Origin: Spinactinospora alkalitolerans
GTDB taxonomy: Bacteria; Actinomycetota; Actinomycetes; Streptosporangiales; Streptosporangiaceae
Length of the DNA stretch: 64,000 nt
Assembly: GCF_013408795.1 (NCBI RefSeq)
Contig: NZ_JACCCC010000001.1
Location: 6,076,001-6,140,000, forward strand
Direction: 5' to 3'
The translations under genes were made by a program, and so were the position numbers. Below the pieces are notes generated by a model. It saw only the letters and a list, made by a program, of their open reading frames with translations. It had not been told where the DNA came from and searched no databases. Below are positions 42,368 to 59,322 of the stretch, piece after piece (the stretch's first letter is position 1; each line of letters opens with the position of its first letter).

Positions 42368-42425
42368 CGATCTTGACCTTGCGGGGGTTATTGCAACGTT
42401 TTTAGGACCCATAAGGTCAAGATCG
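42368..42425. repeat. Terminal-inverted-repeat element A
   Basis: CGATCTTGACCTT and AAGGTCAAGATCG form 13-bp perfect inverted ends of a 58-bp element whose interior contains GGGGTTATT..CAACG. The element supplies the stop codon of the MFS remnant on the minus strand (the CGATCTTGA end, read in the opposite direction). Confidence 0.8.
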
Positions 42426-42660
42426 GCGCGGAAGGAGCGGGGCGCGGCCGATCAGCGGCACGGTCAGGTTCGGCGCCACGGCGACGAGCACGCTGCCCAC
42501 CGTGACGCTGACGAGCGAGACCCGCAGCATGCGGCGGTGCCCGTAGAGGTCGCCGAGGCGGCCGAACACCGGGACCGAGATCGCGGCGGCGAGGAACTGG
42601 ACCGCGGTGATCCGGCACCGTCGCGATCCTGCAAGGAGGCGGTCGCGACCACGACGGCCG
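42416..42660 (-). pseudogene. MFS transporter remnant
   Basis: The minus strand reads ITAVQFLAAAISVPVFGRLGDLYGHRRML, the helix-2/motif-A region of a multidrug MFS transporter, then VSLVSVTVGSVLVAVAPNLT. It is cut off by repeat element A, which provides the stop. A shifted upstream piece (PLPAVVVATASLQ) looks like the end of helix 1. Only about 70 residues remain, so it is a fragment. Confidence 0.75.
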
Positions 42661-42700
42661 GCAGCGGTCCCGGCTCACCCGGGACCGCTCCTCCTCGCGC

Positions 42701-43207
42701 GTGGCGGCCCCCTTCGCCCCGGACGCGGTCGACCGCGCTCTCGCGGTCGCGCTGGCCGAGGACGGCAGGGCGCCCTACGCCGACCTCGCCGCCGTGACCG
42801 TGACCGGCCCCGATTCCGCGCGGCGCCGCGTCGGGCGCATGCCGGCGGGCCGAGTCCTGACGGCCCGCTGCGAGATCGCCCGGTCCCTGTCGGAGTGGCC
42901 GGTGGCCATGACCCTGTGGGTGCGGGTCGCGTCGGGCGACATGGCCAAGATCACCCCGATCGTCTCGGGGATGCGGGAGGTCCGGCTGTGCGTCGGGGTG
43001 TCGGGGCGGTACAACCTGATGATCACGGCGTGGATCCGCTCGGTCGGCGACGCCCAGCGGTTCGAGGCCCGCCTCGCCGAGCGCCTGCCCGGCATCCTCA
43101 TCGGCGACCGGGCGACCGTCCTGCAGCCGATGAAGCTCATGGGTCACCTGCTCGACCACCGCGGCCACCGGATCGGAACCGTCCCGGTGAACCCCTGGAG
43201 CTCCTGA
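42701..43207 (+). CDS. Lrp/AsnC-family regulator, probably N-terminally truncated
   Basis: 168 residues. DAVDRALAVALAEDGRAPYADLA followed by ARRRVGRM looks like a slightly degenerate AsnC HTH, then CEIARSLSEWPVAMTLWVRV and IVSGMREVRLCVGVSGRYNLMITAWIRS form the ligand-binding (RAM) domain. Many actinobacterial relatives carry two such units (about 320 residues), so this is likely the second half only. The GTG 42701 start lacks a ribosome site and the frame is blocked by a stop at 42608. It lies divergent to the MFS remnant, and both may be relics of one regulator-exporter pair. Confidence 0.6.
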   Translation: MAAPFAPDAVDRALAVALAEDGRAPYADLAAVTVTGPDSARRRVGRMPAGRVLTARCEIARSLSEWPVAMTLWVRVASGDMAKITPIVSGMREVRLCVGVSGRYNLMITAWIRSVGDAQRFEARLAERLPGILIGDRATVLQPMKLMGHLLDHRGHRIGTVPVNPWSS

Positions 43208-43228
43208 ACCGCCGGACCTACACCGGAC

Positions 43229-43486
43229 CTACAGCGGCCACTCGACGATCTCGTCGACCGGGTCGAGGCGGACGGTGATCCTGTGCCCGGACTCGGCCAG
43301 GACGGCCTGGATCGCCGCGGCGACCACGGGCAGGGGGCGGTCCCGGCGAGCGCGGACGTGGATCTCCAGCGGGGCTTCGCCGTCGGCCGCGGCGCCCGTG
43401 GCGCGGGGGCACGGGACCACGGCGACGACTTCGGGAACGCGAAGAACCTGCTCTGCGATGTCGCGGGGCAAGGTCGCCTGGAACAC
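43229..43486 (-). CDS. Small hypothetical protein
   Basis: 85 residues beginning MFQATLPRDIAEQVLRVPEV with VVAVVPCPRATG, LEIHVRARRDRPLPVVAAAIQAVL and ITVRLDPVDEIVEWPL. The strand-helix-strand layout resembles Asp23/Gls24-like or ferredoxin-fold proteins, but the family is not recognised. GAAGGAGA precedes GTG 43486. It is convergent with the Lrp-type gene. Confidence 0.65.
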   Translation of the reverse strand: MFQATLPRDIAEQVLRVPEVVAVVPCPRATGAAADGEAPLEIHVRARRDRPLPVVAAAIQAVLAESGHRITVRLDPVDEIVEWPL

Positions 43487-43629
43487 GTGCTGTCTCCTTC
43501 TTCGGCCACACCGGTGGCCGCCCCGATCGGGGCGGCCACTGGTAAGACAACATCGGAGGCCGTTTCCACACGGTTTCGCGCCGTGGGTTGTATCACACGT
43601 CCATGCTGGTCAGAGCCGAAATATCGGCG

Positions 43630-45081
43630 TCACCCGAGTTGTTTGGGCAGCCCCATGTGGAGGACCTTCACGGTCGTCATCTCGTCCATGAGCTCGGGTC
43701 CGTAGCCGAACCCCTGCCCGCTGGCGCCGCGGGGCTGGGCCGCGCCGCCGGGGGCCCCGCCGAAGACGGCGTTGACCTTGACGGTGCCCACCGGCAGTTC
43801 CCGGCAGGCCCGCTGGGCGTGCTCCATCGACGCCGTGAGCACCGTCGCGGCCAGGCCGTAGCGGTCCCGCACCGCCTCGGCCAGGCCCTGGTCGAACCCG
43901 TCGACCACCTGCACCGGGGCGACCGGGCCGAAGGTCTCCTCCCGCATCACGGCCATCCCGTCGGTGCACCCGGTGAGGACCGTCGCCGGGTAATAGGCGC
44001 TCAGCCCGCCCGGCATCTCACCGCCGATCAGGCACGTGGCCCCGGCCTGCACGGCCTGCTCCACGTGGGCGTGCACCGCCTCCCGGTGCCGCCGGTCCAC
44101 CAGCGGCCCCATCGCGATCTCCCCGGCCGCGGCCGACTCGGGGACCCGGCGGGCCGCCTGCTCGACGAGCGCCTCGACGAACCGGTCCGCGACCGCCCGG
44201 TGCACGTAGATCCGCTCCACCGACGTGCAGATCTGCCCGCTGTTGGCGAACGAGCCCAGCGCCGCCTGCTCCGCGGCCCACACCGGGTCGACGTCGGCGT
44301 CCACGACCAGCGGGTCGTTCCCGCCGTTCTCCAGCAGCGCCTTGGCCCCCGTCCGCGCCGTCGCCGCCCGGATCGACGCGCCGGCGGCGGTGCTGCCGAC
44401 GTGCGCGACCACATCGGCCCGCGGATCCTCCGCCAGCGCGACGCCGACCTCGCCGCCCCCCGTCAGGCCGGTCAGCACCCCTTGGGGCAGTCCCGCCGCG
44501 ACGATCTCGGCGAACAGTGCGCCGGTGTGCGGCGCCCGCTCGCTCGCCTTGTAGACGACCGTGTTGCCCGTGGCCAGCGCCGCGCCGACGAGTCCGCAGC
44601 TCACCGCGACCGGGTCGTTCCACGGCGTCAGCGCGACCACGACCCCGCGCGGCTCGGCCACCATCACATCGGTGGCGCTCCAGTCCCCGACCAGGCTGCG
44701 CCCGCGGTGCAGCGGGCCGATCTCGGCGTACTGCTCCAGCGTCCCGGCTCCGGCCTCGACGCCCTCCCGCGCCTCCGCGAGCGGCCGCCCGGTCTCGCGG
44801 CTGTTCAGCCGGGCGAGGTTCTCCTCGTTGTCGCGCAGGACCCGCGCGATCGTCCGCAGCGCGGCGCCGCGCTCGGCCGCGGGCGTGCGCGCCCATTGCG
44901 CGCGGGCGCGGCGGGCGCGGTCGAGGGCCGCGTCGACGTCGGCGGCGGTCGCCGCGGGCAGGCGCCCCACGAGCGTCCCGTCGCGCGGGTCGACCACCGT
45001 CAGGTCGCCGCTCGCCTCCCGCACCGACGGCACCTCCGCCGCCGTCGCCGCCGTCGGTGCGGTGCGCGTTGACTCAACCAC
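43630..45081 (-). CDS. Aldehyde dehydrogenase family protein
   Basis: 483 residues. Cofactor- and substrate-site motifs of NAD(P)-dependent aldehyde dehydrogenases: VVALTPWNDPVAVSCGLVGA, TGNTVVYKASERAPHTGALF, VAHVGSTAAGASI, the general-base Glu in LLENGGNDP, the catalytic Cys in NSGQICTSVERIYV and MREETFGPVAPV. It oxidises an aldehyde to an acid in the cytoplasm; the substrate is not predictable. The GTG 45081 start with GGGAGA upstream overlaps the end of the Rieske gene by eight bases, so translation is coupled. Confidence 0.92.
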   Translation of the reverse strand: MVESTRTAPTAATAAEVPSVREASGDLTVVDPRDGTLVGRLPAATAADVDAALDRARRARAQWARTPAAERGAALRTIARVLRDNEENLARLNSRETGRPLAEAREGVEAGAGTLEQYAEIGPLHRGRSLVGDWSATDVMVAEPRGVVVALTPWNDPVAVSCGLVGAALATGNTVVYKASERAPHTGALFAEIVAAGLPQGVLTGLTGGGEVGVALAEDPRADVVAHVGSTAAGASIRAATARTGAKALLENGGNDPLVVDADVDPVWAAEQAALGSFANSGQICTSVERIYVHRAVADRFVEALVEQAARRVPESAAAGEIAMGPLVDRRHREAVHAHVEQAVQAGATCLIGGEMPGGLSAYYPATVLTGCTDGMAVMREETFGPVAPVQVVDGFDQGLAEAVRDRYGLAATVLTASMEHAQRACRELPVGTVKVNAVFGGAPGGAAQPRGASGQGFGYGPELMDEMTTVKVLHMGLPKQLG

Positions 45082-46009
45082 GTGCTCTCCCTGTCGTCGG
45101 CTGCTTCTCCTGCTCACTGCCCGCACCGGCCGCCTCGGAGCGCGGCGGGGGCACCAGCGCGCCGCTCTCGGGGCGGCGCACGCTCACCACCCCGTCGCGC
45201 ACGCGGGTCTCCAGCACCGGCTGCGAAGCGGTGGCCGGGCCGCTGACCACGCCGCCGTCGGCCAGCCGGAACGTGCTGCCGTGCCACGGGCAGGTGATGC
45301 AGTCGTCGGAGACCTCGCCCTTGGACAGCGGCCCGCTCATGTGCGAGCAGATCTCGGCCATGACGTGCACCTCGCCGCCCGAACGGACGATGACCAGCGG
45401 GGTGTCGCCGAGCACGCCGTGCATCGGCGTCTCCTCGGGGAACTCCGTCAGCATGCCGATGTCGTGCCACTCCGACGGCATCCGGTCCGTCACGTAGTCG
45501 GCGCGGTTGGCGCCGCCGGCCAGGTGGTAGGCGATGTGCGCCCCGAGCATGCCGCCGACGCCGACCGCCCCGAGCCCGGCCGCGCCCAGCGCCTTGCCCC
45601 AGCCGTGCCTGCCGCGCGAGCGCGCCATCGAGGACGCGCCGTACAGCATCAGCGCCACGTTGTTGGCCGCGGCGTGCACGACCCCGACCCGCTGGTGCCG
45701 CTCGTGCTGGCGCGACCAGTCCGCCGCCCCGGCCGCCATCGCCGGGACGGCGGCGATGATGCCGGTGTTGACCAGCCGCCGCGCGGAGCGCTCGGTTCCG
45801 GGGAAGCAGTCGAGGACGGCGGCCGACAGCCACGCCCCGATGGGCACCTGCACCATCAGCGGGTGCATCGGATGACCGAGTTGGACGCCGTGCAGCACGT
45901 CGCGGAACCGCCCCTCCGGGACGGCGTCCACCACCCGCTTCATAGCGCCCGCGACCCGGTCCAGGCCCTTGGCCCGCTCGATCCGGTGAATCCGTTCTCC
46001 CAGTCTCAT
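45074..46009 (-). CDS. DUF2231-Rieske fusion membrane protein
   Basis: 311 residues. The N-terminal half is a four-helix DUF2231-like membrane domain (GHPMHPLMVQVPIGAWLSAA, NTGIIAAVPAMAAGAADWS, VVHAAANNVALMLYG, GMLGAHIAYHLAGG). The C-terminal half is a Rieske [2Fe-2S] domain with ligands in ICSHMSGPLS and CITCPWHGSTF. It probably passes electrons at the membrane, perhaps to or from the coupled aldehyde dehydrogenase. Such fusions are known in actinobacteria but their partner enzymes are unclear. ATG 46009 was chosen as start; the open frame upstream is low-complexity. Confidence 0.88.
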   Translation of the reverse strand: MRLGERIHRIERAKGLDRVAGAMKRVVDAVPEGRFRDVLHGVQLGHPMHPLMVQVPIGAWLSAAVLDCFPGTERSARRLVNTGIIAAVPAMAAGAADWSRQHERHQRVGVVHAAANNVALMLYGASSMARSRGRHGWGKALGAAGLGAVGVGGMLGAHIAYHLAGGANRADYVTDRMPSEWHDIGMLTEFPEETPMHGVLGDTPLVIVRSGGEVHVMAEICSHMSGPLSKGEVSDDCITCPWHGSTFRLADGGVVSGPATASQPVLETRVRDGVVSVRRPESGALVPPPRSEAAGAGSEQEKQPTTGRARG

Positions 46010-46134
46010 GCGCGGGCGGCTACCCCAAACCCGCAGATCGAACCGGACGCCCGCCGTCCCCGGCCTCCTGCAGAGGTCCGCGGGAGCCGGATGGATCCGG
46101 GCGGGCGCACATGTCCGTTCTGCGGTGGTTCCCT

Positions 46135-46198
46135 CGGCGATCCTGACCTTGCGGGCGTTATTCAAACGTTCCAAGAGTCCATCAGGCCAAGATCGCCG
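46135..46198. repeat. Terminal-inverted-repeat element B
   Basis: CGGCGATCCTGACCTT at the left pairs with GGCCAAGATCGCCG at the right, with GCGGGCGTTATTCAAACG inside. It belongs to the same family as elements A, C and D and lies in the spacer before the DUF2231-Rieske gene. Confidence 0.75.
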
Positions 46199-46221
46199 AA
46201 AAGTCCGCGGGCTCCGATCGG

Positions 46222-46464
46222 TCAGTCCGGGTCCCGGTCGAGGGCCGGCTCGGAGTCGTCGCAGGGCGGGCCCTCCAGGTCGGAACGGGCCTCGGAACCG
46301 CCGTCGGCCGGCACCGGCGTCGGGACGCCGGTGCCGGTGACCTTGCGGCCCTGCGCGCGGGCGCGGTCGCTGGCCTGCGGTTCGTCCTCGTCGCGCAGCA
46401 CGGGCGCGAACCCGCGGTCGTCGGTGTGCTCGGGTTCGGGTTCGTGGCCCAGAGGCTCGGACAT
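46222..46464 (-). CDS. Small acidic hypothetical protein
   Basis: 80 residues, acidic and Pro/Glu-rich (MSEPLGHEPEPEHTDDRGFA, then DSEPALDRDPD at the end), likely disordered. A strong ribosome site (GGAGGAGGAGC) precedes ATG 46464. Family not recognised. It lies 27 bases downstream of and co-directional with the small membrane protein gene. Confidence 0.6.
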   Translation of the reverse strand: MSEPLGHEPEPEHTDDRGFAPVLRDEDEPQASDRARAQGRKVTGTGVPTPVPADGGSEARSDLEGPPCDDSEPALDRDPD

Positions 46465-46491
46465 GCTCCTCCTCCTTCATCGGCCGTCCGG

Positions 46492-46737
46492 TCATTCGAA
46501 GAGCGAACCGTGGCCGGGTCCCCGCTGCCGTCGGCGCCTGAGGACGACCACGATGTCGACCACCCCCACCACGGCGAGCACCCAGAGGAAGACCGCCAGG
46601 ACGGTGAAGTCGGCGGTGAGGGCGATCGCACCGAGGGCGATGCAGACGACGACGCCGATCACCGCCATCAGCAGCCGCAGGTTCAGCGCGCTGTAGGGCC
46701 GGTCATGGCTGCCCCTCGGGGGTTTGGCACGTCCCAT
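46492..46737 (-). CDS. DUF6343-like small membrane protein
   Basis: 81 residues. RPYSALNLRLLMAVIGVVVC with two membrane helices (to FLWVLAVVGVVDIVVVL) and a basic tail (RRRRQRG) matches the DUF6343 pattern of actinomycetes. Function unknown. ATG 46737 was chosen because it starts MGRAKPPRGSHD and has GGGAGGGAG nearby. It likely shares a transcript with the acidic protein gene. Confidence 0.7.
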   Translation of the reverse strand: MGRAKPPRGSHDRPYSALNLRLLMAVIGVVVCIALGAIALTADFTVLAVFLWVLAVVGVVDIVVVLRRRRQRGPGHGSLFE

Positions 46738-46804
46738 GCTCCCTCCCTCCACCCGACCCCCTAACCGCGCGGCGGACACCGAAACGCGGCGCGGCCCCGG
46801 GCGG

Positions 46805-47518
46805 TCACCGGCGCAGGGAACGGGCCAGGGCGACGGCCTCCAACTGGGAGGTCACCTCCAGCTTGGCCAGGATGGAGCGGATCTGGGAGCGGACCGTGGA
46901 GATGGCGACGAAGGAATCCGCGGCGATGGCCGCGGCCCGCCTGCCGTCCACCAGCGCGTCGAGGATCTCGTGCTCGCGGGCGGTGAGCAGGCCCATGAGG
47001 CGGCTCTCCGCGCGCCGCCGCGCCACCGCGTCCCGGTGCTCGGTCATCAGACGCTCGCGCTCCTGCCCGCTCATCACCGGACGGCCGGCGACGGCGTCCA
47101 GGATGGTCTGGATCAGGTCCGGGAACGGCGCGGACTTCGGCATCCAGCCGATGGCGCCGGCCGCGACCGCCGCGGCGATGCGGTCCCGCCCCGTCGTCCC
47201 GGTCAGGATCAGCACCAGCCAGCCGTCGGCGTGGAACTCCCGCGCCAGCGGGACGCCGTCCAGCGACTCCCCCTCCGCGCCGGTCCCCAGGTCGAGGTCG
47301 AGCAGGACCAGGCCGGGGGCCAGGTCGGCCGCGCTGCGCCGGACGGCGTCGGCGCCGAGCACCGGTGCCCGGACCGCCGCGATGCCTTGGGCTCTGAGCG
47401 CGAGCTCCATGGTGGTGCTGAGAAGTTCGTGGTCGTCCACGATCAGCACGTTCGGACAGCGGGCGGTCCTCGCCTCGCCGCCGTCGTCGTCCTCCGCGCG
47501 CTCGTCAGTGATCGACAT
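46805..47518 (-). CDS. LuxR-type response regulator
   Basis: 237 residues. The receiver domain has LIVDDHELLSTTMELAL, phospho-acceptor Asp in LVLLDLDLGTG, LILTGTTGRD and WMPKSAPF. The C-terminal LuxR HTH is LMGLLTAREHEILDALVDGR then IAISTVRSQIRSILAKLEVTSQLEAVALA (with VAIST in place). It binds DNA after phosphorylation by the adjacent histidine kinase, whose stop overlaps this start by 14 bases. Target genes are unknown. Confidence 0.92.
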   Translation of the reverse strand: MSITDERAEDDDGGEARTARCPNVLIVDDHELLSTTMELALRAQGIAAVRAPVLGADAVRRSAADLAPGLVLLDLDLGTGAEGESLDGVPLAREFHADGWLVLILTGTTGRDRIAAAVAAGAIGWMPKSAPFPDLIQTILDAVAGRPVMSGQERERLMTEHRDAVARRRAESRLMGLLTAREHEILDALVDGRRAAAIAADSFVAISTVRSQIRSILAKLEVTSQLEAVALARSLRR

Positions 47519-49079
47519 GGCCACCTCCGGTACTCGTTGACGTTGACGCCGCCTCGGACGGGGAACGGCGGCTGCCGACCCAGCGGACCCGGGAGCCGCG
47601 GTGGCTGCGGCGGGCGCGCAGCGTCTGCCCCTGCGGCTCGGGCGCCTCGACGGGAAGGTCCACGATGACCGTGCAGCCCGGCCGCTCCGGGATCGCGGGC
47701 GCCAGGCGCAGCCGCCCGCCGTACCGGTCCAGGACCTGCCGGCAGACGTGCAGCCCGATGCCCTGCCCCACGGACGCTCCACCCTTCGCGCCGCGCCGCA
47801 GCATCTCCTCCTCCTTGCCCGCCGGGACCCCGGGGCCGTCGTCCTGCACCTGGATCCGCGCCCGGTCGCCGAGCCGGTAAGCCTCCACCCACACCCGCGC
47901 CCCCGGGGCGTGGCGCTCGCAGTTGGCCAGGACGTTGGTGACGACCTGGGCGACGATCTCCGGCGGCACGTCGACGGTCAGGTCCTCCTCGGCGGCGAAC
48001 TCGATCGCCATCCCGGTGGTCCGCCGGATCAGCACGAGCTGCTCCAGCAGCGCCTTCAGCCGCACCCGCCGATTGGGCCGCCGCGACGGGTCGGTCTCCA
48101 GCATGGCGCGCATGCGGTCCAGCTCGGCGGACATGGCGGCGCGCAGGGCGGTGCGGTCGATGTCGGCGCCGTCCTGCGGGTCCATGGCCAGCAGTTGGGC
48201 GGCCCCGTCCACACCGGCGAGGGCGTTGCGGAGCTCGTGCGCCTGCTCCGACATCCGCTCCTGCACCCGCGACGCCTCGGCCTGGGCGTCGCGGAGCCGC
48301 TCCTGGTCGAGGACGAGCTGCTGATGGGTCTGCAGCGCGGCCCGGAGCAGCGCGCACAGGATGAGGGCCAGGCCGAGGAGCCGCATCCCCGGCACCAGCA
48401 TCGGGGAGGAGAGGATCGGCTCCCACTCCAGCACCCGCGGCACGTTGCCGCCGATGATGCTGATCATGCCGAACCCGGTCCACACCCACAGCCGACGCCG
48501 CCGCACCAGCCCGGCCACGATCAGCGCCACCCCGCCGTTCAGCCAGAACAGCACGATCCCCACCACGAGGAACCGCGAGGTGACCACGGGGTAGCCGAAC
48601 TGCGGCACGGCCGCGGCCACCAGGGCCACGGCCGCGGTGGCCGCCACGGCCACGACCGTCCCGCGCGTTCCGGTGACCGGGCCGCGGAACCCGGGCAGCG
48701 GCCACGGGTGCGGGCGGTCGAACCTGGCCAGCGAGGCCAGCAGCAGCCCCACGGTGGCGAGGCTGGCGGTGTGCCGAGCGGCCGAGACGACGATGGTGTC
48801 CACCGCGTTGGCCGACCCCGCGGCCGTCGCGGGGACGACGATCACCGCGTAGACGATCATGGCGGCCGCGATCCTGCGCAGCGCGGGCTGATCGGCGGTC
48901 CGGGCGGTGAACTCCGCGACGAGCGCGGCGAACGCGGCGCCGCCGGAGGCGAACATCGCGAGCATCGCGGGCAGTTGCGCGGTGATCCCGGTCGGTCCGG
49001 CCTCGATGTGGTGCAGCGTCACCGCGGCGGCGACGACCACCGACAGCAGGGCCACGGTTTCCAGGGCGAGTTTGCGCAC
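47505..49079 (-). CDS. Membrane histidine kinase of a two-component system
   Basis: 524 residues. Several N-terminal helices (about residues 5-250, MASE-like) precede a coil and an H-box SEQAHELRNALAGVDGAAQL, then the ATPase with N-box VVTNVLANCERHAPGARVWV, G-box DDGPGVPAGKEEEMLRRG and GQGIGLHVCRQVLDRYGG. The C-terminal 50 residues are Arg/Ser/Thr-rich. GTG 49079 was used. The stop overlaps the regulator start, so both are coupled. The signal is unknown, and no separate extracellular sensor domain is visible, so the membrane part itself probably senses. Confidence 0.9.
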   Translation of the reverse strand: MRKLALETVALLSVVVAAAVTLHHIEAGPTGITAQLPAMLAMFASGGAAFAALVAEFTARTADQPALRRIAAAMIVYAVIVVPATAAGSANAVDTIVVSAARHTASLATVGLLLASLARFDRPHPWPLPGFRGPVTGTRGTVVAVAATAAVALVAAAVPQFGYPVVTSRFLVVGIVLFWLNGGVALIVAGLVRRRRLWVWTGFGMISIIGGNVPRVLEWEPILSSPMLVPGMRLLGLALILCALLRAALQTHQQLVLDQERLRDAQAEASRVQERMSEQAHELRNALAGVDGAAQLLAMDPQDGADIDRTALRAAMSAELDRMRAMLETDPSRRPNRRVRLKALLEQLVLIRRTTGMAIEFAAEEDLTVDVPPEIVAQVVTNVLANCERHAPGARVWVEAYRLGDRARIQVQDDGPGVPAGKEEEMLRRGAKGGASVGQGIGLHVCRQVLDRYGGRLRLAPAIPERPGCTVIVDLPVEAPEPQGQTLRARRSHRGSRVRWVGSRRSPSEAASTSTSTGGGHVDH

Positions 49080-49124
49080 GGCGAGGTGTTCCTTAAGGAC
49101 GGGGGTGTTCGGCCGGGATCTCGG

Positions 49125-49877
49125 TCAGCCGCCGGGCGGCCGGGTGCCCGCCCGCGGCGGGGTCGCGGCCGGCCGGGCTTCCGGTTCGCCGGCGCCGACC
49201 GCCTCGCCGCCGTCCTCGTCGTCGTCACCGCCGCCGTCCTCGTCGTCGCCGTCGTCGCTCAGGGCGACGCCGAGCAGCCACAGGCCGAAGACGAGCAGTA
49301 TCCCCGCCAGCACGTACATCAGCGTGGGCCCCTGCTCCATCGCCTGCTGGGCGTAGCCGAAGTAGGGGATGTGGTACCAGACCTCGCCGCGGACGTCGGC
49401 GGCGGGAACGGGCGGGTCGTCGGGGACGTCGTTGGCGTCGCCCCGGGTGTGGAGGAGGCTCCCCTCCCCCGTCTCCTCGACCTCGACGACCCGGTGCGTG
49501 ACCAGGGGCGTGAGCTCCGGGTCGAAGGAGTCGGTCTGCGCCGGGTCGCCGTGCTCGAACGTGATGACGTCGCCGACCTCGACGGCGGCGGGATCGACGG
49601 GCCGGGCGATGACGACCGAGCCCACGGGGATCGACGGCTCCATGCTCCCGCTCAGGACGATCAGCGCCTGGGCCCCGGTGACCCGGGGCAGTACGGACAC
49701 GGAGAGGACCACGCCCGCGGCACCGAGAAGAAGCAGGGTGACGAATAGGGCGAAAAGCGCGGAAAGAAAGCGCCGAATTACGGACCGCTTTCTTTCTGCC
49801 CGCGGTGACCGGCCGTTCTCGGGCCGTCCGCGCGCCGACGGCCCGCCGCCGTCGAGCGCTGCCTCGCTGTCGTCCAT
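49125..49877 (-). CDS. SipW-like (ER-type) signal peptidase I
   Basis: 250 residues. One membrane helix (LSALFALFVTLLLLGAAGVVLSV) is followed by the active-site Ser motif ALIVLSGSMEPSIPVGSVVI, GDVITFEHGDP, and LVTHRVVEVE where His replaces the Lys of ordinary bacterial enzymes, then LHTRGDANDVPDD and a second helix (LMYVLAGILLVFGLWLL). These are the marks of SipW-type peptidases, which in Bacillus mature TasA and TapA. Three SipW-type substrates lie 3.7-6.4 kb away. The C-terminal tail is acidic and disordered. Confidence 0.9.
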   Translation of the reverse strand: MDDSEAALDGGGPSARGRPENGRSPRAERKRSVIRRFLSALFALFVTLLLLGAAGVVLSVSVLPRVTGAQALIVLSGSMEPSIPVGSVVIARPVDPAAVEVGDVITFEHGDPAQTDSFDPELTPLVTHRVVEVEETGEGSLLHTRGDANDVPDDPPVPAADVRGEVWYHIPYFGYAQQAMEQGPTLMYVLAGILLVFGLWLLGVALSDDGDDEDGGGDDDEDGGEAVGAGEPEARPAATPPRAGTRPPGG

Positions 49878-50331
49878 CCGGCCCCCTCCCGGCCTGCGCG
49901 GGGCCCCGGTGGCGGTCCGGCCCTCCCGCCGGCCGACCGGAACAGACCCCGGACCGGGGTCGTGCGCCTTCGACGGAAAAAGCGCGGATCATGAAAGGCA
50001 TTCGGACCCGGCCGCGTCGAAGGGCACCGGCAAAGGAGCCCGTGACGGATTTTACGAAACACCGCCGACAAATTCCCGTGTTCCCGCGAACTTCCGTGAC
50101 ATCAACGGTCCCGGTCCCCGAGTCAGCACGCCCGTATACCGGTTTTTCTGCGCTCCGGATCACGGGTCGGCGTGCGCTGTCGTGCCACGGCCGGGCGGTG
50201 CCCGCGCGCTGCGCCGGTTTGGCGACGCGGCCCGCATCGGCCGCTCTGGCCCGCGCCTCCCACAAGGCCTGCTACGGCCGTGTGCCTTCCGCCGCGATGC
50301 CGGTGAAACGTGCGGGTGCGCCGTGGTGCGC
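49878..50331. other. Intergenic region
   Basis: About 450 bases between the signal peptidase and the MBL-fold gene. The part around 49985-50110 is less GC-rich and may hold the peptidase promoter. No gene or repeat was recognised. Confidence 0.55.
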
Positions 50332-52556: not shown

Positions 52557-53044
52557 GGGTGCACCTCTCCCGGTTCCGGGGACGGGTCCGCCGTGGAGGC
52601 CGGACGCGTCCGCGCGGGGTCGGGACCGTCGGGCCTGGCCGACGCCTCGGCCGACTCCTCCGGTGCCGCCTCGGGCCGCGGTTCCCGCGATCCTCCGCGC
52701 GGTGGAGCCGACGATTCGGACGGGGTCGGGGACGGGGTCCCGGTCGTGCCGTCCGGCCCGGCCGAGGGCGACGACGGCGACGGCGATGGGGACGGGGACG
52801 GCGAAGGCCCCGTCACCGTGATCGGGCCGGTCGTCGCCCGCACGCTGAACGCGGCGTCGGTCACCCGCCGGTGTCCGGCGATCGACGCGGCGACCGCGGC
52901 GGCCAGGACCACGAGCACCAGGGCCGGCACCAGGTGGCCGCGCACCCGCCGCAGCCGCGCGGCGACACCCGTGCCGGGCGCCGCGGCGGCCGCCGCGGCG
53001 CCCGGCGGGCGGCCCCGCACGTCACGGGCGCGGTTCGCGCTCAT
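52553..53044 (-). CDS. Single-pass membrane protein with Pro/Ser-rich exterior
   Basis: 163 residues. A basic N-terminus (MSANRARDVRG) leads to one helix (LVPALVLVVLAAAVAASIAG), then an exterior stretch starting VTDAAFSVRATTGPITVTGP and a long SPSP/PTPSE linker. The phrase DAAFSVRATTGPITV resembles the beginning of a SipW-type substrate, but no domain follows. Family not recognised. Coupled with the LPXTG gene and divergent from the fibre genes, 487 bases away. Confidence 0.65.
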   Translation of the reverse strand: MSANRARDVRGRPPGAAAAAAAPGTGVAARLRRVRGHLVPALVLVVLAAAVAASIAGHRRVTDAAFSVRATTGPITVTGPSPSPSPSPSPSSPSAGPDGTTGTPSPTPSESSAPPRGGSREPRPEAAPEESAEASARPDGPDPARTRPASTADPSPEPGEVHP

Positions 53045-53531
53045 GGGCTCACGTCCTCACTGCAACGGCGGCGATCGGGGGCAGGGGTCGGCCGCAGCGG
53101 TGCGCGCGGCGCCGGCGGACCGAGAACGCACGTGCCGGGCCCACCACCCTGCCGGAACGCGTTCGCTGCGACATCGCCAAAAAAGGGGAAACGGACTTCA
53201 TCGACTTTGGGGATGACCGGATCGGCTCCGGACCGGCAGAGTCGTACTCGGCAGTCGGAAGGGCTGCGACGCAGGAGGCGGATCGGGCGGCGTGCTCCGC
53301 CTCCTGCACGCCCCCCTTGCCCGCCCCGTTGGGCGGGCATCCCGGCGAGTCGGCGACACCTGCGCGGCCGGAGACGTTCCCGGCCCGATGCCCGGCCGCG
53401 AGGAACACCGCGCGGCGCGGCCGGACCCCGATTCCCCCCGACGGCCCGCCGCACGCCTTCCGCCGCCCCCGAAGTCCCCATCGGGCCATCCCCCATCAGG
53501 ACCGGCCCGGCTCGAAAGGACGTGGACCTCC
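53045..53531. other. Divergent control region of the surface-protein locus
   Basis: 487 bases between the minus-strand LPXTG operon and the plus-strand TasA-like genes. A less GC-rich stretch at 53170-53240 (ACATCGCCAAAAAAGGGGAA) is the likeliest site for divergent promoters. No gene is supported. Confidence 0.5.
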
Positions 53532-54149
53532 ATGGCCAGCAGCAAGCGCAAGAAACTCGTCGCCGGTCTCGGCGCGGCAGCCGTGATCGGCGCCGCCGTG
53601 GCGATCACCGGCGGAACCTACGCCTACTTCACCGACAGCGACCGGACCACCGGCCAGAACGTCGCCGCCGGCGACCTGTCGGTCACGGTCTCCCAGAGCG
53701 GCAGCGGGCTGACCGACAAGCCGGTCAGCATCGACGACGCCGCACCGGGGCGGGTGTACCTGGACGACCTGCCCGGTCACTGGGGCGACGACTGGTACCG
53801 GATGAAGGTGACCAACGAGGGCTCCGTCGACGGCGAGATCGACTCCGTCGAGATCGTCGACCTGACCGGCGGAACGCCGAACCTGGCCGACCGCCTGCAG
53901 ATCCGCGCCGTCATCAAGCCCACCTCGTGGGAGCCCGGCAACTGGGGCCCGCCGGCGTTCGAGGCGCTGGACGCCGGAGCGCTGAGCGATCTGCCGGGGG
54001 ATGAGAACCTGGACGCGGGCGAATCGACCTACGTCTACTTCCAGATCCGGTGGCCGAACGGGACCCCCGACGAGGACAACCCGTACCAGAACGCCGACAC
54101 CTCGTTCAGGTTCCAGGTGAACCTGGACCAGAGGAACCAGGGCGCCTGA
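53532..54149 (+). CDS. SipW-dependent TasA/CalY-like surface protein 1
   Basis: 205 residues. The signal ends in ITGGTYAYFTDSDRTTGQNV, the typical SipW-dependent signal (T-Y-A-Y-F-T/S-D). The mature part has GDLSVTVSQSGSG, WYRMKVTNEGSVDGEIDSVE and YVYFQIRWPNGTPDEDNPYQ, consistent with the TasA/camelysin beta-sandwich that forms matrix fibres. GAAAGGACG lies near ATG 53532. First of three similar genes in one direction. Confidence 0.85.
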   Translation: MASSKRKKLVAGLGAAAVIGAAVAITGGTYAYFTDSDRTTGQNVAAGDLSVTVSQSGSGLTDKPVSIDDAAPGRVYLDDLPGHWGDDWYRMKVTNEGSVDGEIDSVEIVDLTGGTPNLADRLQIRAVIKPTSWEPGNWGPPAFEALDAGALSDLPGDENLDAGESTYVYFQIRWPNGTPDEDNPYQNADTSFRFQVNLDQRNQGA

Positions 54150-54247
54150 CCGTTCACGGCCGAGCGAGCGGCGAGGTCCCGCACCGGGCGCCCGGTGCGG
54201 GACCTCGGACGCGTCCGGGAGCGCCCTTGGAGAGGGGAGGCGCGACC

Positions 54248-54874
54248 ATGACCTTGAAGAAGAGGACGGCCCTGAAGAAGAGGGCGGCCCTGGCCCTGGG
54301 AGCGGCGGCGACGGTCGGCGCGCTGATGCTGTGCGTCGGCGGCACCTACGCCTACTTCACCGCGAACGCGCGCGGCCAGGCCGGCGAGATCCGGGCCGGG
54401 GACCTGTCGGTCGACGCGGCCGGACTCGGCCCCGAGGACGGCAGCGGGCCGGTCGCCATCACCGCCGCCGCACCGGGGCGGCGGTGGCCGGCCTCCGACG
54501 GCGACTCCTACACGCTGGTCGTCAACAACACCGGTTCCGTGGACGCCCGGATCGAGAAGCTGCTGATCTCCATCACCGGCGGCGGCGCGGACGGGCGCCC
54601 CAACCTCAGCGAGGCCCTGGAGATCCGCTACACCACCGAGGCCAAGCGCAGCGGAGCCCCCGACTGGGACGGCGGCAGCGGCTGGGCGGCCCTGCCCCGC
54701 ACGTCGGCCTCGGTGCTCGACTCGCTGCGCCGCAGGCCGGGGACCGTCGGGGCCGGCGAAACCCAGGAGCTGCACTTCCAGGTGCGCTGGCCCGACGGCG
54801 ACCCCGACCACGACAACCGCTTCCAGGGGGCCGGCACCGAGTTCGCGTTCACCGTGCGGCTCGGGCAGGCGTGA
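54248..54874 (+). CDS. SipW-dependent TasA/CalY-like surface protein 2
   Basis: 208 residues. The signal reads LCVGGTYAYFTANARGQAGE, again SipW-type. GDLSVDAAGLGPED, YTLVVNNTGSVDARIEKLLI and ELHFQVRWPDGDPDHDNRFQ match the first protein, showing a tandem duplication. GGGGAGG precedes ATG 54248. The gap to the previous gene is 98 bases and to the next 43 bases, so an operon is likely. Confidence 0.85.
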   Translation: MTLKKRTALKKRAALALGAAATVGALMLCVGGTYAYFTANARGQAGEIRAGDLSVDAAGLGPEDGSGPVAITAAAPGRRWPASDGDSYTLVVNNTGSVDARIEKLLISITGGGADGRPNLSEALEIRYTTEAKRSGAPDWDGGSGWAALPRTSASVLDSLRRRPGTVGAGETQELHFQVRWPDGDPDHDNRFQGAGTEFAFTVRLGQA

Positions 54875-54917
54875 GGCCCGCCCCGCCGGACGGGCGGGCC
54901 GTGAAGGAGAGGGCAGG

Positions 54918-55511
54918 ATGATGCGGCTCAGCAGGCCCGTGCTCGCCGGGATCGGCGCGGTGGCCGTCGCGGGGGCGATCGGCGGCGCCGTCCTGGGGAC
55001 GCGGGCGTCCTTCACCGCGGAGGCCGACAGCGGGGCGTTGCCCGTCACGGCCGGAGAGCTCGACGTCGCACTGCGCACGGGCCCGGCCGGCGCCGTGCGG
55101 ATCGACTTCGGCGACGCCGGACCGGGGCGGATGTGGCCGGAGTCCGGCGCGTTCGAACTGGAGCTCAGCAACACCGGCGACATCGACGGGGTGGTCTCCG
55201 AACTGGCCACGGCGACCGTCTCCGACCGGACCCCCGAAGGCGCCGAACCGCTGAGCCGGGCGCTGGAGGTCGCCTGGAGCGACCGGTCCCGGCAGGACTG
55301 GAGCGACCCGGGCCTGGAGTGGGAGCCGGTCGCGACCGCCGAGCAGGCCGACGGCCGCACCATCGGCTCCGACCTCGGTGAGCTGGAGGAGGGCCGGACC
55401 CGGACGCTGTACCTGAAGGTCCGCTTCGCCGAAGACCGGGACGCCGCGGACTACGCCGGCTCCACCAGCGACTTCCGGCTCACCGCGACGGTCCGCTCTC
55501 GCCGATCTTGA
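54918..55511 (+). CDS. TasA/CalY-like surface protein 3, divergent
   Basis: 197 residues. The signal region GIGAVAVAGAIGGAVLGTRA followed by SFTAEADSGALPV is a weaker version of the SipW site (SFT instead of YFT). The mature part keeps GELDVALRTGPAG, FELELSNTGDIDGVVSELA and LYLKVRFAEDRDAADY. It probably plays a minor or capping role, as TapA does for TasA (inference). AAGGAGAGGG precedes ATG 54918. The stop codon TGA lies inside repeat element C. Confidence 0.8.
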   Translation: MMRLSRPVLAGIGAVAVAGAIGGAVLGTRASFTAEADSGALPVTAGELDVALRTGPAGAVRIDFGDAGPGRMWPESGAFELELSNTGDIDGVVSELATATVSDRTPEGAEPLSRALEVAWSDRSRQDWSDPGLEWEPVATAEQADGRTIGSDLGELEEGRTRTLYLKVRFAEDRDAADYAGSTSDFRLTATVRSRRS

Positions 55512-55772
55512 CCTTGTCGGGGTGATCGCAGCGGCGGTTTCAGGGGGCTGTCGCAACGGCTGCGTGGTGTCGGAGACCGTGGCCGCGGGCTTTCCGTGCA
55601 CCAACGGTGACCTGGAGGGCCGCCGCCAGCGCGTCGCCGGACGCTTCGCGCCTGACAACAGCCCCATCAGGCCCGCAGCGGTTCAGCAGGGCCGGGAGAG
55701 CGACCATCGACCACCCCGCTGCAACCACCGCCGGAAACCACCGTTGAAATAACGCCCACAAGGTCAAGATCG
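55503..55772. repeat. Terminal-inverted-repeat element C, long form
   Basis: CGATCTTGACCTT (55503-55515) pairs with AAGGTCAAGATCG (55760-55772), with AATAACGCCCAC next to the right end as in the other copies. About 245 bases lie between the ends and contain no recognised gene. Both flanking genes stop inside the element ends. Confidence 0.8.
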
Positions 55773-56273
55773 CCGCCGGGACCACTCCCATGGACGCGGG
55801 GAGGTGCCGGGAACCCGGCGGGGCAAGGGGGCGTCGGCCTCGGGGTCCGTCCCGTCCGGGACCTCGCCGCCCCGCGGCCCGGCGGGGTTGAGCAGTTCCG
55901 GGTCGAACCGGAGCAGGGGCGACGGGTCGTCCTCCTCCTCGGGGACCGGGCCGAGCTCTCGTTCCCGCGACACCTCCGGGGACTGCCGGGGCTGGGCGAG
56001 GGGGTCGCGCAGGTCCTCGAACTCGATCAGGACGCCGTTTTCGGTCACAGCGATGGCGACGTTTCGTTTGATCCGTTTTCCGGCGACCTTGCCGGCGGCG
56101 ACGATGCGCTGCCGGTCTCGTTCGGTCGGCGCGCCCATGACGACGCTCTCGTGGGCGCGTAGGCCGACCGTGACGCGTTCGACCAGGTCGGGCTGCTGCT
56201 CGTGCACGTGGGTGTGGGGCAGGCGTACGGGCTCGGGGTTGGAATCGGCTGGGTGCGCAGAGATCGGCATCAA
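55764..56273 (-). CDS. Hypothetical protein
   Basis: 169 residues. The middle part VERVTVGLRAHESVVMGAPT, RDRQRIVAAGKVAGKRIKRN and VAIAVTENGVLIEFEDLRDP looks like a compact alpha/beta domain; the C-terminus is Pro/Glu-rich and probably disordered. No family is recognised. The start at ATG 56273 or 56270 is uncertain. The last codons (RRRS stop) and the TGA come from the end of repeat element C, so the original C-terminus may have been different. Confidence 0.55.
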   Translation of the reverse strand: MMPISAHPADSNPEPVRLPHTHVHEQQPDLVERVTVGLRAHESVVMGAPTERDRQRIVAAGKVAGKRIKRNVAIAVTENGVLIEFEDLRDPLAQPRQSPEVSRERELGPVPEEEDDPSPLLRFDPELLNPAGPRGGEVPDGTDPEADAPLPRRVPGTSPRPWEWSRRRS

Positions 56274-56847
56274 AGGTCCGCTTCAAACGTGCAGAGGCTG
56301 GGCACACACGACCGCCGGGGCTCATCGGGGCAGGAATGAGGACGTCGTGAATATTTTTCGCATCGGTAGGTAAACCTTACAAGCACGGCCGCGTCCTCAC
56401 CCACGCGAGTCCACTGTCTCCGTGACCGCGGCGGTACGCACCGTGCCCATTCCGGTCCGATCGGGCGGCACCATCCCCTCTTCCCCACTTTCCTGCGCGC
56501 GCCTTTCCGCCATTGGCGCGGCCACCGACCCGGACGAACCGTTTCAAAACCCACCGAACGGGAATGTCAGCGCTCAACGCAGCCCTCATGTCGCAACCCC
56601 GCTTTCGAAAGAGGATTGACCGAAGGAGGCCACCATGGCGTTCCGGTCGTCCTCTCCGCCGGAAGGCGGAGGGGACGGCGGTTTCCCGGTCTTCCCCGGG
56701 ACGCGTTCCCTCGGGGATTCTCGTAAGATCGGCTCGGTACCATGCGGTCCGCATCCCCTCGTGGCGCTCTGCCCTGTCATGTCCGGACCCCTGGCCGTTT
56801 TTCGCCCCGGCACCCTCCAGCCCCGCCGATAGAAGGCACCCTTTTCT
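56274..56847. other. Upstream region of the LCP gene
   Basis: About 570 bases. A+T-rich DNA at 56345-56385 (GTGAATATTTTTCGCATC) may hold promoters for the minus-strand hypothetical gene or the LCP gene. A small ORF with a strong ribosome site lies at 56635. Confidence 0.5.
56635..56832 (+). CDS. Possible small leader ORF upstream of the LCP gene
   Basis: 65 residues, MAFRSSSPPEGGGDGGFPVF and low-complexity after. AAGGAGG lies six bases before the ATG, better than many real genes here, but the sequence shows no domain and codon bias is weak. It could be a translated leader or chance. Confidence 0.25.
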   Translation: MAFRSSSPPEGGGDGGFPVFPGTRSLGDSRKIGSVPCGPHPLVALCPVMSGPLAVFRPGTLQPRR

Positions 56848-58086
56848 ATGTCCGATGAGTCTCCCGCGGCAGCGTCCGAAACCCCGCCCCGTCGCCGCAA
56901 GTGGAAGCGCGTGGTCGCCTGGACCTCCGTGGCACTGGTGCTGGCCGTGCTCGCGGGGGCGGGAACCGTCTACGGCTACTACCGCTCCCTGCGCGGGAAC
57001 ATGGTCCAGCACGACCTCGCCTCGGCCCTCGACGAGGAGGAGCGCCCGCCCAAGATCGGCGAGGACGTGAACATCCTGTTCATCGGCTCCGACCTGCGCG
57101 AGGGCGACAACGCCGAATACGGCGGCCGCGACTTCGTGGGCGAGCGCTCCGACTCCCTAATGCTGGCCCACATCTCCCCCGACAACGGGGTCACCGTCGT
57201 CAACTTCCCGCGCGACTCCCTCGTGGATCTCCCCGAGTGCAGGCCCTACGAGGGCACCGAGGGAACCGAGGGCTACTACGGGATGATCAACGCCGCGCTC
57301 TTCCACGGCGGCCCGCCGTGCGCGGTCAAGACGATCGAGTCGCTGACCGACATCCGCATCGACCACTTCGCGCACCTGAACTTCGTCGGCTTCCGCGACG
57401 TGGTGGACGCGGTCGGCGGCGTGGAGATGTGCATCCCGAAGCCGATGGAGGACGAGCGCTCAAAGCTCGACCTGCAGGCCGGGGTGCAGACGCTCGACGG
57501 CGAGGAGTCGCTGTCGTTCGTGCGCGCCCGCTACGAGATCGGCGACGGCGGCGACATCGGCCGCATCGACCGCCAGCAGATGTTCCTCGCCGCGCTGGCC
57601 GAGCAGGTGACCAGCAGCGACGTCCTCACCAGCCCGAGCAAGACGACCTCCCTGCTCAAGGCCGTCACCGAACACACGGCGACCGATGACGAGCTCACGC
57701 TGGACAAGATGATCTCCATCGGCTCCACGCTGGCCGACGTCGACCTCGACGACATCACGTTCTACACGGTGCCGTGGTGGCCGGCCCCCTACAACCCCAA
57801 CCGGGTGGTCTGGGACGAGGAGAAGGCCGCCCAACTGTTCGAAGCCGTCAACACCGACGGCCAGGTCACCGACGCGATGCTGGAGAGCGGCAGCCCCGAG
57901 GCGCCGACCCCCGATCCGAGCGCGTCGGGCACCCCCTCGCCGTCGTATCCGGCCGAGCCCTCGACCGAACCCGTCGCGCCCGAGTCCTCCTCCGGCGACT
58001 CCGCCGGGAGCATCGAGGGCCGCGACGCCACCTCCGACCCCTGCGTCAACGGCCTGGGCGAGGGCACCGGAACCGACCGGCGGTGA
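56848..58086 (+). CDS. LytR-CpsA-Psr (LCP) family cell-wall polymer ligase
   Basis: 412 residues. One membrane helix (residues about 21-43, VVAWTSVALVLAVLAGAGTV) and then the LCP domain: DVNILFIGSDLREGD, RSDSLMLAHISPDNGVTVVN, FPRDSLVDLPE, INAALFHGGPPCAVKTIESL, VGGVEMCIPKPM and LSFVRARYEIGDGGDIGRIDRQ. LCP enzymes transfer glycopolymers from a lipid carrier to peptidoglycan (or arabinogalactan) outside the cell. The Arg and Asp residues that bind the pyrophosphate lipid are present. The tail is Pro/Ser/Glu-rich. It starts at ATG 56848. Monocistronic. Confidence 0.92.
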   Translation: MSDESPAAASETPPRRRKWKRVVAWTSVALVLAVLAGAGTVYGYYRSLRGNMVQHDLASALDEEERPPKIGEDVNILFIGSDLREGDNAEYGGRDFVGERSDSLMLAHISPDNGVTVVNFPRDSLVDLPECRPYEGTEGTEGYYGMINAALFHGGPPCAVKTIESLTDIRIDHFAHLNFVGFRDVVDAVGGVEMCIPKPMEDERSKLDLQAGVQTLDGEESLSFVRARYEIGDGGDIGRIDRQQMFLAALAEQVTSSDVLTSPSKTTSLLKAVTEHTATDDELTLDKMISIGSTLADVDLDDITFYTVPWWPAPYNPNRVVWDEEKAAQLFEAVNTDGQVTDAMLESGSPEAPTPDPSASGTPSPSYPAEPSTEPVAPESSSGDSAGSIEGRDATSDPCVNGLGEGTGTDRR

Positions 58087-58169
58087 CCGCGGGCCGCGGC
58101 CGCCGCCTCCGGTGGCCGCGGCCCCTCCGGGGTACCGCCGATCGGGCGGCCCTAGTAACGTGGCCCGGG

Positions 58170-58259
58170 TAACCACGCGGGGTGTCCCGGAACGGGACTG
58201 AGACGGGCGCGGCGCCCGAACCCGTTGAACCTGATCTCGTTCGTACGAGCGGAGGGAAC
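58170..58259 (+). ncRNA. TPP riboswitch (THI element)
   Basis: The aptamer landmarks are in order: CCACGCGGGGTGTCCCGG, ACTGAGACGGGC, CCCGTTGAACCTGATCTC and GCGGAGGGAAC. This fits the thiamine-pyrophosphate riboswitch, with CTGAGA and CCTGATC as its conserved cores. The GGAGGG of its 3' stem is also the ribosome site of the tenA gene, so ligand binding should block translation. Confidence 0.93.
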
Positions 58260-58262
58260 GCG

Positions 58263-58970
58263 GTGGGCAACTCCCCTGTCGCCACCATGGAAACCGGCTT
58301 CACCGCCGAGCTGGGCCGGCGCCACGCCGACCTGTTCGAGGCGTTCTACGACCACCCCTTCCTGGCCGGGATGCGCGACGGCACCCTGGCCAAGGAGAAG
58401 GTGCTGCACTACGTGGGCCAGGACCACCAGTACCTGAGCGCCTACATCCGCTGCTACGGCCTGGGCCTGGCGCTCTCGCCGGACCGCGGGTGGATGCGGC
58501 ACTTCCACGACAGCATCGCCTTCGTCCTGGACGAGGAGTCGCACCCGCACCAGGTCCTGTGCGAGCACGCCGGCACCGGCTACGCCGAGGCCCAGGTCGG
58601 CCGCCTGGCGCCGAGCGCGCAGGCCTACGTCGACCACATGATGGCGGCCGGACGCGACAGCCTGGGCGTACTGCTCGCCTCGCTGCTGCCCTGCCCGTGG
58701 ACCTACACCTGGGCCGCCGACCGGTTCGTCCGCGACGAGCGGCCCGGCCCGGACAACCCGTTCCTCGGCTGGTGGACGTTCTACGCCGATCCCGGCTGCC
58801 AGTCCGTCACCACCGAGCTGCGCTCGATGCTCGACTCGCTGGCGGCCGACGCCGGCGCGGCCGAACGCGCCAGGATGGAGCGGGCGTTCGAGGACAGCTG
58901 CCACCACGAGGTCCGCTTCTGGAACATGGCCTGGACCCTGGAGGAGTGGAGCGCACCGACCGGCGCGTGA
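58263..58970 (+). CDS. tenA: TenA-family thiaminase II / aminopyrimidine aminohydrolase
   Basis: 235 residues. HPFLAGMRDGTLAKEKVLHY, VGQDHQYLSAYIRCYGLGLA, LASLLPCPWTYTWAADRF and FEDSCHHEVRFWNMAW are TenA landmarks; the conserved Cys is in LLPCPWTY and the C-terminal Glu in CHHEVRFW. TenA hydrolyses thiamine breakdown products to salvage the HMP pyrimidine. GTG 58263 was chosen because GGAGGG sits seven bases upstream; ATG 58287 is an alternative. Control by the upstream TPP riboswitch fits this role. Element D follows. Confidence 0.92.
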   Translation: MGNSPVATMETGFTAELGRRHADLFEAFYDHPFLAGMRDGTLAKEKVLHYVGQDHQYLSAYIRCYGLGLALSPDRGWMRHFHDSIAFVLDEESHPHQVLCEHAGTGYAEAQVGRLAPSAQAYVDHMMAAGRDSLGVLLASLLPCPWTYTWAADRFVRDERPGPDNPFLGWWTFYADPGCQSVTTELRSMLDSLAADAGAAERARMERAFEDSCHHEVRFWNMAWTLEEWSAPTGA

Positions 58971-59322
58971 GGGCCGCGGCGACCGATCACCGTGTCCGGC
59001 GATCGTGACCTTGCTGGGATTTTTAGGCCCCACAAGGTTGAAACCCAAGGTCGAGATCGGCGGGAAAGGCAAAACGCCGACCGGCGCGGCTGCTGATCGG
59101 CGTCGGCGGCGGCGCCTGGGCGCCGCCGCCGCGTTGAGGCCACCGCCCCTCTCCTCCCCCTCCGATCAGGAAAGAGGTGGTGGCCCCCGTCTCCCGAACT
59201 GCACCGCCCTCCGATGCCGGGAGACCGCTCCGGGGATCAGGGCCGCTGGACGGCCCTTCCGCCGGAGCGGGGTGCCCCGCCGGGACGGTCGACGGGACAC
59301 CCGTTCATGGGGTCGGCAGCGC
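58971..59322. other. Intergenic region containing element D
   Basis: About 350 bases between tenA and the secreted protein gene on the other strand. It contains repeat element D and otherwise Ala/Arg-type noise frames. Both genes converge here, so element D may end transcription. Confidence 0.55.
58998..59062. repeat. Terminal-inverted-repeat element D
   Basis: CGATCGTGACCTTG pairs with CAAGGTCGAGATCG at the right end, with TGGGATTTTTAGGCCCCACA inside. Its core matches element A (TTTTTAGGACCCATAAGG), though an extra TTGAAACC is present near the right end. Confidence 0.7.

Follow-up and report, generated by a model that had tools for sequence, protein, structure and literature searches.

A dispersed gene-end hairpin family of Actinomycetes, with arms that change together in relatives and appear to decay in Spinactinospora alkalitolerans

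The 64,000-nt window analyzed here, from Spinactinospora alkalitolerans contig NZ_JACCCC010000001.1 (positions 6,076,001 to 6,140,000; coordinates below are positions in this window), contains four inverted-repeat elements with the ends CGATCTTGACCTT / AAGGTCAAGATCG, which are altered in two of the four. An earlier sequence-only reading had already picked out these four, and two of its starts were moved by 2-3 bases (46135 to 46138 and 58998 to 59000). Beyond the view of that reading, the elements are copies of a hairpin of conserved length that recurs in many genomes of the class Actinomycetes, with arms that co-change in relatives and stem types that differ at orthologous junctions. We propose, as an even call on the sequence comparisons set out below, that this is a dispersed two-way 3'-end hairpin, whose arms would be repaired by template switching and which might now be decaying in the window's genome. 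Such hairpins would be transcribed from both sides, ending or protecting transcript 3' ends; they would spread as non-autonomous repeats, and one copy would replace another at the same site. At DNA replication, template switches inside the hairpin would be the main process keeping the arms identical, and palindromy would thereby last even as the sequence drifts. This maintenance seemingly stopped in the window's genome, the arms presumably decaying independently and many copies now taking the form of 140-580 bp mosaics. A two-way hairpin at 3' ends agrees with the long, symmetric stem that follows stop codons, and mobility at some point is likely, because the sequence types are genome-specific and dispersed.

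A scan for two perfect ends in a species-genome collection (84,980 species by its own description, from which records very close to the window's genome may be omitted) returned a sole organism, Actinorugispora endophytica DSM 46770, in five stretches on five contigs. It is, judging by the 47 reciprocal best protein pairs averaging 73% identity to the window's genome in the stretches compared, a relative and evidently a distinct species. Ends with at most one mismatch number 119+124 in its genome vs. 1+2 in the control, and 800 kb of it contains 41 end pairs with starts 38-59 bases apart, 33 of which measure exactly 58 bp overall; these copies are near-perfect palindromes of 58 bp with a stem of ~29 bp. 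The same 800 kb has 92 strong hairpins (93 were listed, one being an excluded run of N) vs. 20 in as much sequence from the window's genome. A family-like base is carried by 52 of the 92, and there are sister hairpin types with similar bases and different interiors. Further types (L111-L150) were also observed in this organism, with bases such as GGTGATCTTGCTG, GTTGACGGTCGTGGGC, and GGTGGTCTTGACGCTACTG.

An alignment of the 33 A. endophytica copies (the 8 of 41 end pairs with other spacing being omitted) has 97.1% of its cells paired, with two-sided changes in 14 of the 29 pairs. Cells altered on both sides number 71, vs. 23.2 after shuffling, and the covariation score of 0.238 (0.112 shuffled) was reached by none of 500 shuffles; with the partner slid by 1-3 columns it falls to 0.02-0.09, and most of the signal is gone. 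The comparable alignment across genera (16 rows from 12 genomes, including three copies each from A. endophytica and the window's genome) has 92.0% paired cells and two-sided changes in 23 of the 29 pairs, with 90 two-sided cells (28.4 shuffled) and a score of 0.539 (0.189 shuffled) that is again reached by 0/500 shuffles and mostly removed by sliding the partner 1-3 columns. Pairing above the level of a single shuffle extends ~8 bases past the core in 58 copies. The motif CGGCG/CGCCG occurs near the center in 6 of 35 representatives at offset 0 and in 4 more at offsets 2-4, which is suggestive of a conserved apex, though we do not claim one.

Pairs of the G-U type fill 20 of the 957 cells in the A. 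endophytica alignment, which is low for a single-stranded RNA helix; such a paucity is expected if both strands have to fold, or if the arms are corrected when DNA is copied. Template switching accounts for coupled changes of every kind without G-U intermediates. The available text of PMC8794818 describes it as creating and maintaining perfect hairpins; PMC8604942 and PMC7202029 likewise concern quasi-palindromes and template switching. Our elements resemble the template-switch-corrected quasi-palindromes, as presented in that text of PMC8794818, in that the arms of an inverted repeat are made identical; unlike those, which are single sites, they form a dispersed family with a conserved base and length.

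The mismatch between the two arms of a copy points in the same direction. It amounts to 2.3% (17/726) in the A. endophytica core, vs. 13-14% for the same arm compared between copies. The corresponding values are 4.0% (11/276) vs. 17% in G021 and 7.7% (23/299) vs. 27-29% in G075, two species of one genus for which 12 and 13, respectively, of 14 end pairs each were used, all exactly 64 bp; as these sets, like those from A. endophytica and the window's genome, were picked by matching ends, mismatch is lowered within and between copies alike. In the window's genome, the mismatch within 11 compact copies (17.2%; 34/198) is close to that between copies (16.9%), and the arms there are therefore no longer kept alike.

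A covariance model of the A. endophytica copies (R1) matches 14 of 341 genomes of the taxonomic family at E<=0.001, in 11 of 68 genera, including the window's genome and A. endophytica. In eight other genera, representatives drawn from ten genomes (L182-L191) keep the same length and a like base, and their stems differ yet still pair. The model from the 16-row alignment (R3) matches 66 of the 394 genomes sampled from the class, spanning 45 of 138 genera and 21 families, several by one weak match. Among 15 R3 representatives from other genomes (L192, L194-L207), TGATC is present at the base of 10, and the match spans 65-68 bases in 14, a length partly dictated by the model. The family is described by a core of 58-64 bp, mostly 65-68 bp with conserved flanks and in some cases near 80, a stem of ~29 bp, and a base near CCCG-N-TGATC-N-TG, with base and length being kept while the middle stem varies yet pairs. 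In a phylum-level sample (whose share outside the class is not given), 9 of 396 genomes match, five in the class and four from one family with one weak match each; three of these four out-of-class matches were inspected by eye, and none pairs like the element. Searches of more than 40 genomes used stricter filters with 12-15 candidates scored per genome, so that absences are not proof. The covariance models were used in place of a plain end-motif count, in which all of 150 genomes of the taxonomic family matched, mostly with 5-50 matches of a 14-mer at <=1 mismatch, taken as mostly chance or coding sequence.

Conserved gene junctions reveal how individual copies behave over time. As only 15 conserved neighbor pairs link the window's genome with A. 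endophytica in the stretches compared (one with an element, in A. endophytica only), we used the sister species G021 and G075, which share colinear blocks of 67-92% DNA identity in 400-kb stretches and 177 protein pairs averaging 77%. The comparison took in 30 of their 32 distinct R3 places (E<=0.1), namely those with E<=0.0075. Of 116 junctions conserved in order and orientation, 106 are empty, 4 have an element in both species, 4 in G021 only, and 2 in G075 only; independence would predict ~0.4 shared junctions (8 x 6 / 116), a low estimate given that many junctions are too short for an element. The element-bearing junctions comprise 0/17 of the divergent, 4/19 of the convergent, and 6/80 of the tandem ones. 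With types assigned by eye, the four shared junctions include one with the same stem type, two with different stem types, and one collapsed to a 25-bp palindrome in G075; at least two one-sided junctions retain what looks by eye like a relic in the other species. This combination of stem-type exchange and relics is unlike simple transposon insertion, and fits either copy overwriting or the loss of copies followed by regain at a favored place. The collapsed copy in G075 (L256 13111-13135), orthologous to a full element, is now a perfect, shorter palindrome with arms reaching into the flanks, and is possibly a template-switch footprint.

The copies are placed predominantly behind genes, as judged with a simple codon model that makes the counts approximate (for example, the caller put minus-strand open reading frames (ORFs) over the TasA-like gene and tenA). 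In A. endophytica, 44 intergenic copies divide into 18 convergent, 18 tandem, and 8 divergent, with 8 further copies within called genes, vs. 94 convergent, 270 tandem, and 106 divergent among 470 gaps of >=60 bases. Measured distances to a gene 3' end number 54, of which 24 are <=24 bases. Among 26 loci, of which 25 come from other genomes and one from A. endophytica, there are 13 convergent, 11 tandem, and 2 divergent, and 19 lie <=60 bases from a 3' end. The TGA in the base also allows a copy abutting a reading frame to supply the stop codon. Such element-supplied stops are real in the window and occasional in A. endophytica, where 4 of the 54 distances are negative, i.e., the gene ends inside the element.

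Several observations weigh against the two-way 3'-end hairpin repaired by template switching. Template switching alone leaves the conservation of base and length unexplained, and either selection or a recognizing protein is needed; nor does termination need a conserved base, which rather suggests a recognizing protein. No T-tract was seen behind the stems in the flanks read, and a terminator scan of 42000-60000 gave 3 sites vs. 4.2 in shuffled sequence, one of which falls within the 59000 element and uses the inner TTTTT of that element as the tail. The 8 of 44 A. endophytica intergenic copies between divergent genes are awkward for a gene-end function, as are the elements of the window's own genome, just 3 of which are convergent, with 10 tandem and 3 divergent (16 of ~19 elements counted, with the gene caller wrong at a minimum of two, 55503 and 59000). 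Further, the cross-genus rows came from a structured-model search, which favors paired sequences.

The foremost alternative, which we rate as possible though unlikely, is a miniature inverted-repeat transposable element (MITE), i.e., a non-autonomous transposon in which the base motif represents the terminal inverted repeats cut by a transposase, folding is needed to transpose, and insertion behind genes is tolerated. MITEs such as ERIC, RUP, and the Correia elements are short, non-coding, and present in many copies with inverted-repeat ends, and our elements are like them in each of these respects; they differ in being palindromic throughout, with arms that co-vary in relatives, and in that no parent transposase was seen in the stretches read. 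The terminal inverted repeats in high copy number, the genome-specific sequence types, and the ends conserved across genera all speak for a MITE, as do the one-sided presence at 4 and 2 of the 116 sister-species junctions, at least two of them with a relic in the other species, and the truncation of an MFS gene at 42417. There is also an excess of direct repeats at the boundaries of 58 copies (offsets 0-1; 31 vs. 16.6 shuffled for 2 bp, 14 vs. 7.1 for 3 bp, 10 vs. 2.5 for 4 bp, and nothing clear beyond), which could be target duplications unless it is just self-complementary flank; we attribute it to self-complementary CG-rich flanks, from which target duplications cannot be told apart. On the other side, no full-length element with a transposase gene was found in the stretches read (no whole-genome scan for distant end pairs was made), and the stem-type exchange at one orthologous place is unlike simple insertion. 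Of two scans for carriage on viral contigs, one gave 5 stretches, in which the arms match over 10-mers and the interior is unpaired by eye, and the other gave 0; these matches were taken as chance. The sequence-only reading had suggested a MITE or a mobile bidirectional terminator. A dispersed inverted repeat by gene 3' ends is borne out, and the mobile bidirectional terminator comes near to the hairpin that we favor, while the MITE half is unproven, given the lack of a transposase with these ends in the stretches read, the ambiguity of the boundary repeats, and the absence of PF01797 in the window's genome.

The elements might also be an exchangeable, class-wide 3'-end cassette, a prospect we find quite unlikely, whose base would be recognized by a putative enzyme, with copies overwriting each other and arms being recopied in a form of concerted palindrome copying. 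If so, genomes with decaying arms, such as the window's, would have lost that activity. More doubtful still is a DNA-level signal, such as a cruciform or palindromic site bound by a chromosome-organizing protein, in which the length and base would reflect a dimer or tetramer footprint: the fixed length and base, the symmetric changes, and the few G-U pairs agree with it, but the middle stem is wholly different between genomes, the copies are biased toward gene 3' ends, and 327 of the 341 genomes of the taxonomic family have no R1 match at the threshold used.

Ordinary intrinsic terminators, similar by chance or convergence, are very improbable. The location behind stop codons and the resemblance to bidirectional intrinsic terminators, with a hairpin between convergent stop codons, are as this would have it; unlike those, the hairpin here lacks a T-tract and has an unusually long stem and a conserved base sequence, both base and length are common to many genera, and shorter hairpins (~32-50 bp) without this base coexist in the same genomes. 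REP elements mobilized by RAYT are scarcely credible: PF01797 has zero matches in the window's genome and in the carriers G006 and G010, and the 6 of 14 hairpin carriers with a match (G007, G021, G048, G066, G071, G075) are no more than the 139 of 338 genomes of the taxonomic family with one. A PF01797 match is listed for none of the remaining five carriers, nor for A. endophytica, not all of which may have been in that search. As far as the available text of PMC3733652 goes, our elements are like REP/BIME in being high-copy extragenic palindromes, mostly behind genes and between convergent or tandem genes; in that text the GTAG/CGTC superfamilies of REP carry an unpaired tag and have a stem of 5-13 bp, unlike the ~29 bp stem here, which pairs through its conserved base at a conserved length without a GTAG or CGTC tag.

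Searches for a prior description gave little. Against Rfam 15, 16 loci yielded 8 matches up to E 1, all below the gathering score (seven miRNA families and one viral leader), and in the window only TPP was matched, with no family for the element. No description was found in the open-access literature, subscription literature being outside the search; the available part of PMC10434271 reports inverted repeats as frequent in Actinobacteria generally, and that of PMC6403206 proved unrelated to the element. If the proposed two-way hairpin is right, many actinomycete genomes hold one old gene-end hairpin family that is undescribed in Rfam 15 or the open-access literature searched. It would then offer a candidate means of ending transcripts in GC-rich bacteria without T-tract terminators, and a natural laboratory for the upkeep of perfect palindromes, by both-strand selection or template switching, in which arm-maintaining genomes could be compared with one no longer maintaining them. 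Similar CGTTGATCATGGAG hairpins probably also occur in genomes of Geodermatophilaceae and Micromonosporaceae.

The elements of the window and the features adjoining them are as follows.

42368..42425, no strand: compact 58-bp hairpin copy, whose right end gives the TGA of the MFS fragment
42417..42623, minus strand: MFS_1 fragment (as read), which stops on the element's TGA
46113..46137, plus strand: left extension GTCCGTTCTGCGGTGGTTCCCTCGG, resembling one-sided extensions on other copies
46138..46195, no strand: compact 58-bp copy with independently altered arms (CGATCCTGACCTT vs. CGATCTTGGCCTG)
54918..55511, plus strand: third TasA-like ORF, its final codons CGA-TCT-TGA lying within the element; no Pfam match
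55503..55772, no strand: expanded 270-bp copy with identical 13-bp ends
55764..56273, minus strand: hypothetical ORF, which stops on the right-hand TGA of the 55503-55772 element; no Pfam match
59000..59059, no strand: 60-bp copy with a compact left arm and a right arm, GGTTGAAACCCAAGGTCGAGATCG, like mosaic ends (L011, L016)

The end CGATCTTGACCTT occurs 9 times in the window with <=2 mismatches, vs. 0.86 expected by shuffling (0 of 100 shuffles reach 9), and the four elements account for 8 of the 9 matches through their paired ends. The stop codons that the sequence-only reading had ascribed to the elements are borne out, as the 54918-55511 (plus) and 55764-56273 (minus) ORFs and the MFS fragment ending at 42417 (minus) all finish on the TGA of CGATCTTGA; its 270 bp for the expanded copy is also correct. 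The inner GGGCGTTATT..CAACG motif, which it had given to all four, is present with changes in the 42368 and 46138 copies and inverted at the right end of 55503-55772, but is missing from the 59000 copy. R3 matches three of the four elements (E 8e-15, 2e-6, 1e-5) and gives no match to the expanded copy in the window. The strongest match (64.7 bits, E 8e-15) is the 42368 copy, which has an RNA fold of -39 kcal/mol (z -5.6); the expanded copy has a fold running from one end to the other, at -149 kcal/mol (z -5.0), and other mosaic copies in its own genome align to 61% of its length. The 59000 copy, judging from its two arms, looks like a collapsed mosaic. The MFS fragment covers profile positions 38-92 of 347 in MFS_1 (E 1.6e-7; 31 bits, below the 33.4 cut-off).

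The earlier concern that these might be just four copies is dispelled by the complete genome count (one contig, 6,684,050 bases): the 13-mer end numbers 72+78 at <=1 mismatch vs. 2+1 for the reversed control, and 251+272 vs. 25+35 at <=2 mismatches. Five copies of 57-58 bp have both ends perfect. A profile search of 864 kb, namely two 400-kb blocks plus the window, gave 29 ends, which group by eye into ~19 elements and would extrapolate to roughly 140 in this genome. They take two forms, compact hairpins of ~58 bp and similarly ended mosaics of 140-580 bp; among 15 mosaics compared (the right-end cut being approximate in about half), there are 14 for which other mosaics, in both orientations, cover 96-100% of the length.

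Several copies have on one flank a module like GTCCGTTTTGC-GTGGT..CTCTCG (L012 ~1670-1710, L018 ~1470-1500, and 46113-46137 in the window), and a sequence like this module, GTTCTACAAAACGGACA, lies in the loop of one of the sister types in A. endophytica (L120 2774-2839). In another stretch (L021 1501-2719), a lone left repeat end is followed by a minus-strand ORF of 373 aa, by eye tyrosine-type integrase-like, where an integrated element may have split a hairpin. The TasA-like ORF belongs to a set of tandem TasA/camelysin-like paralogs at 54050-55511, of which the one at 54050 matches Peptidase_M73. A TPP riboswitch (58168-58275; 76.1 bits) lies ahead of a TENA/THI-4 ORF, listed as 58182-58970 with a real start that must be further down, which ends 29 bases short of the 59000 element.

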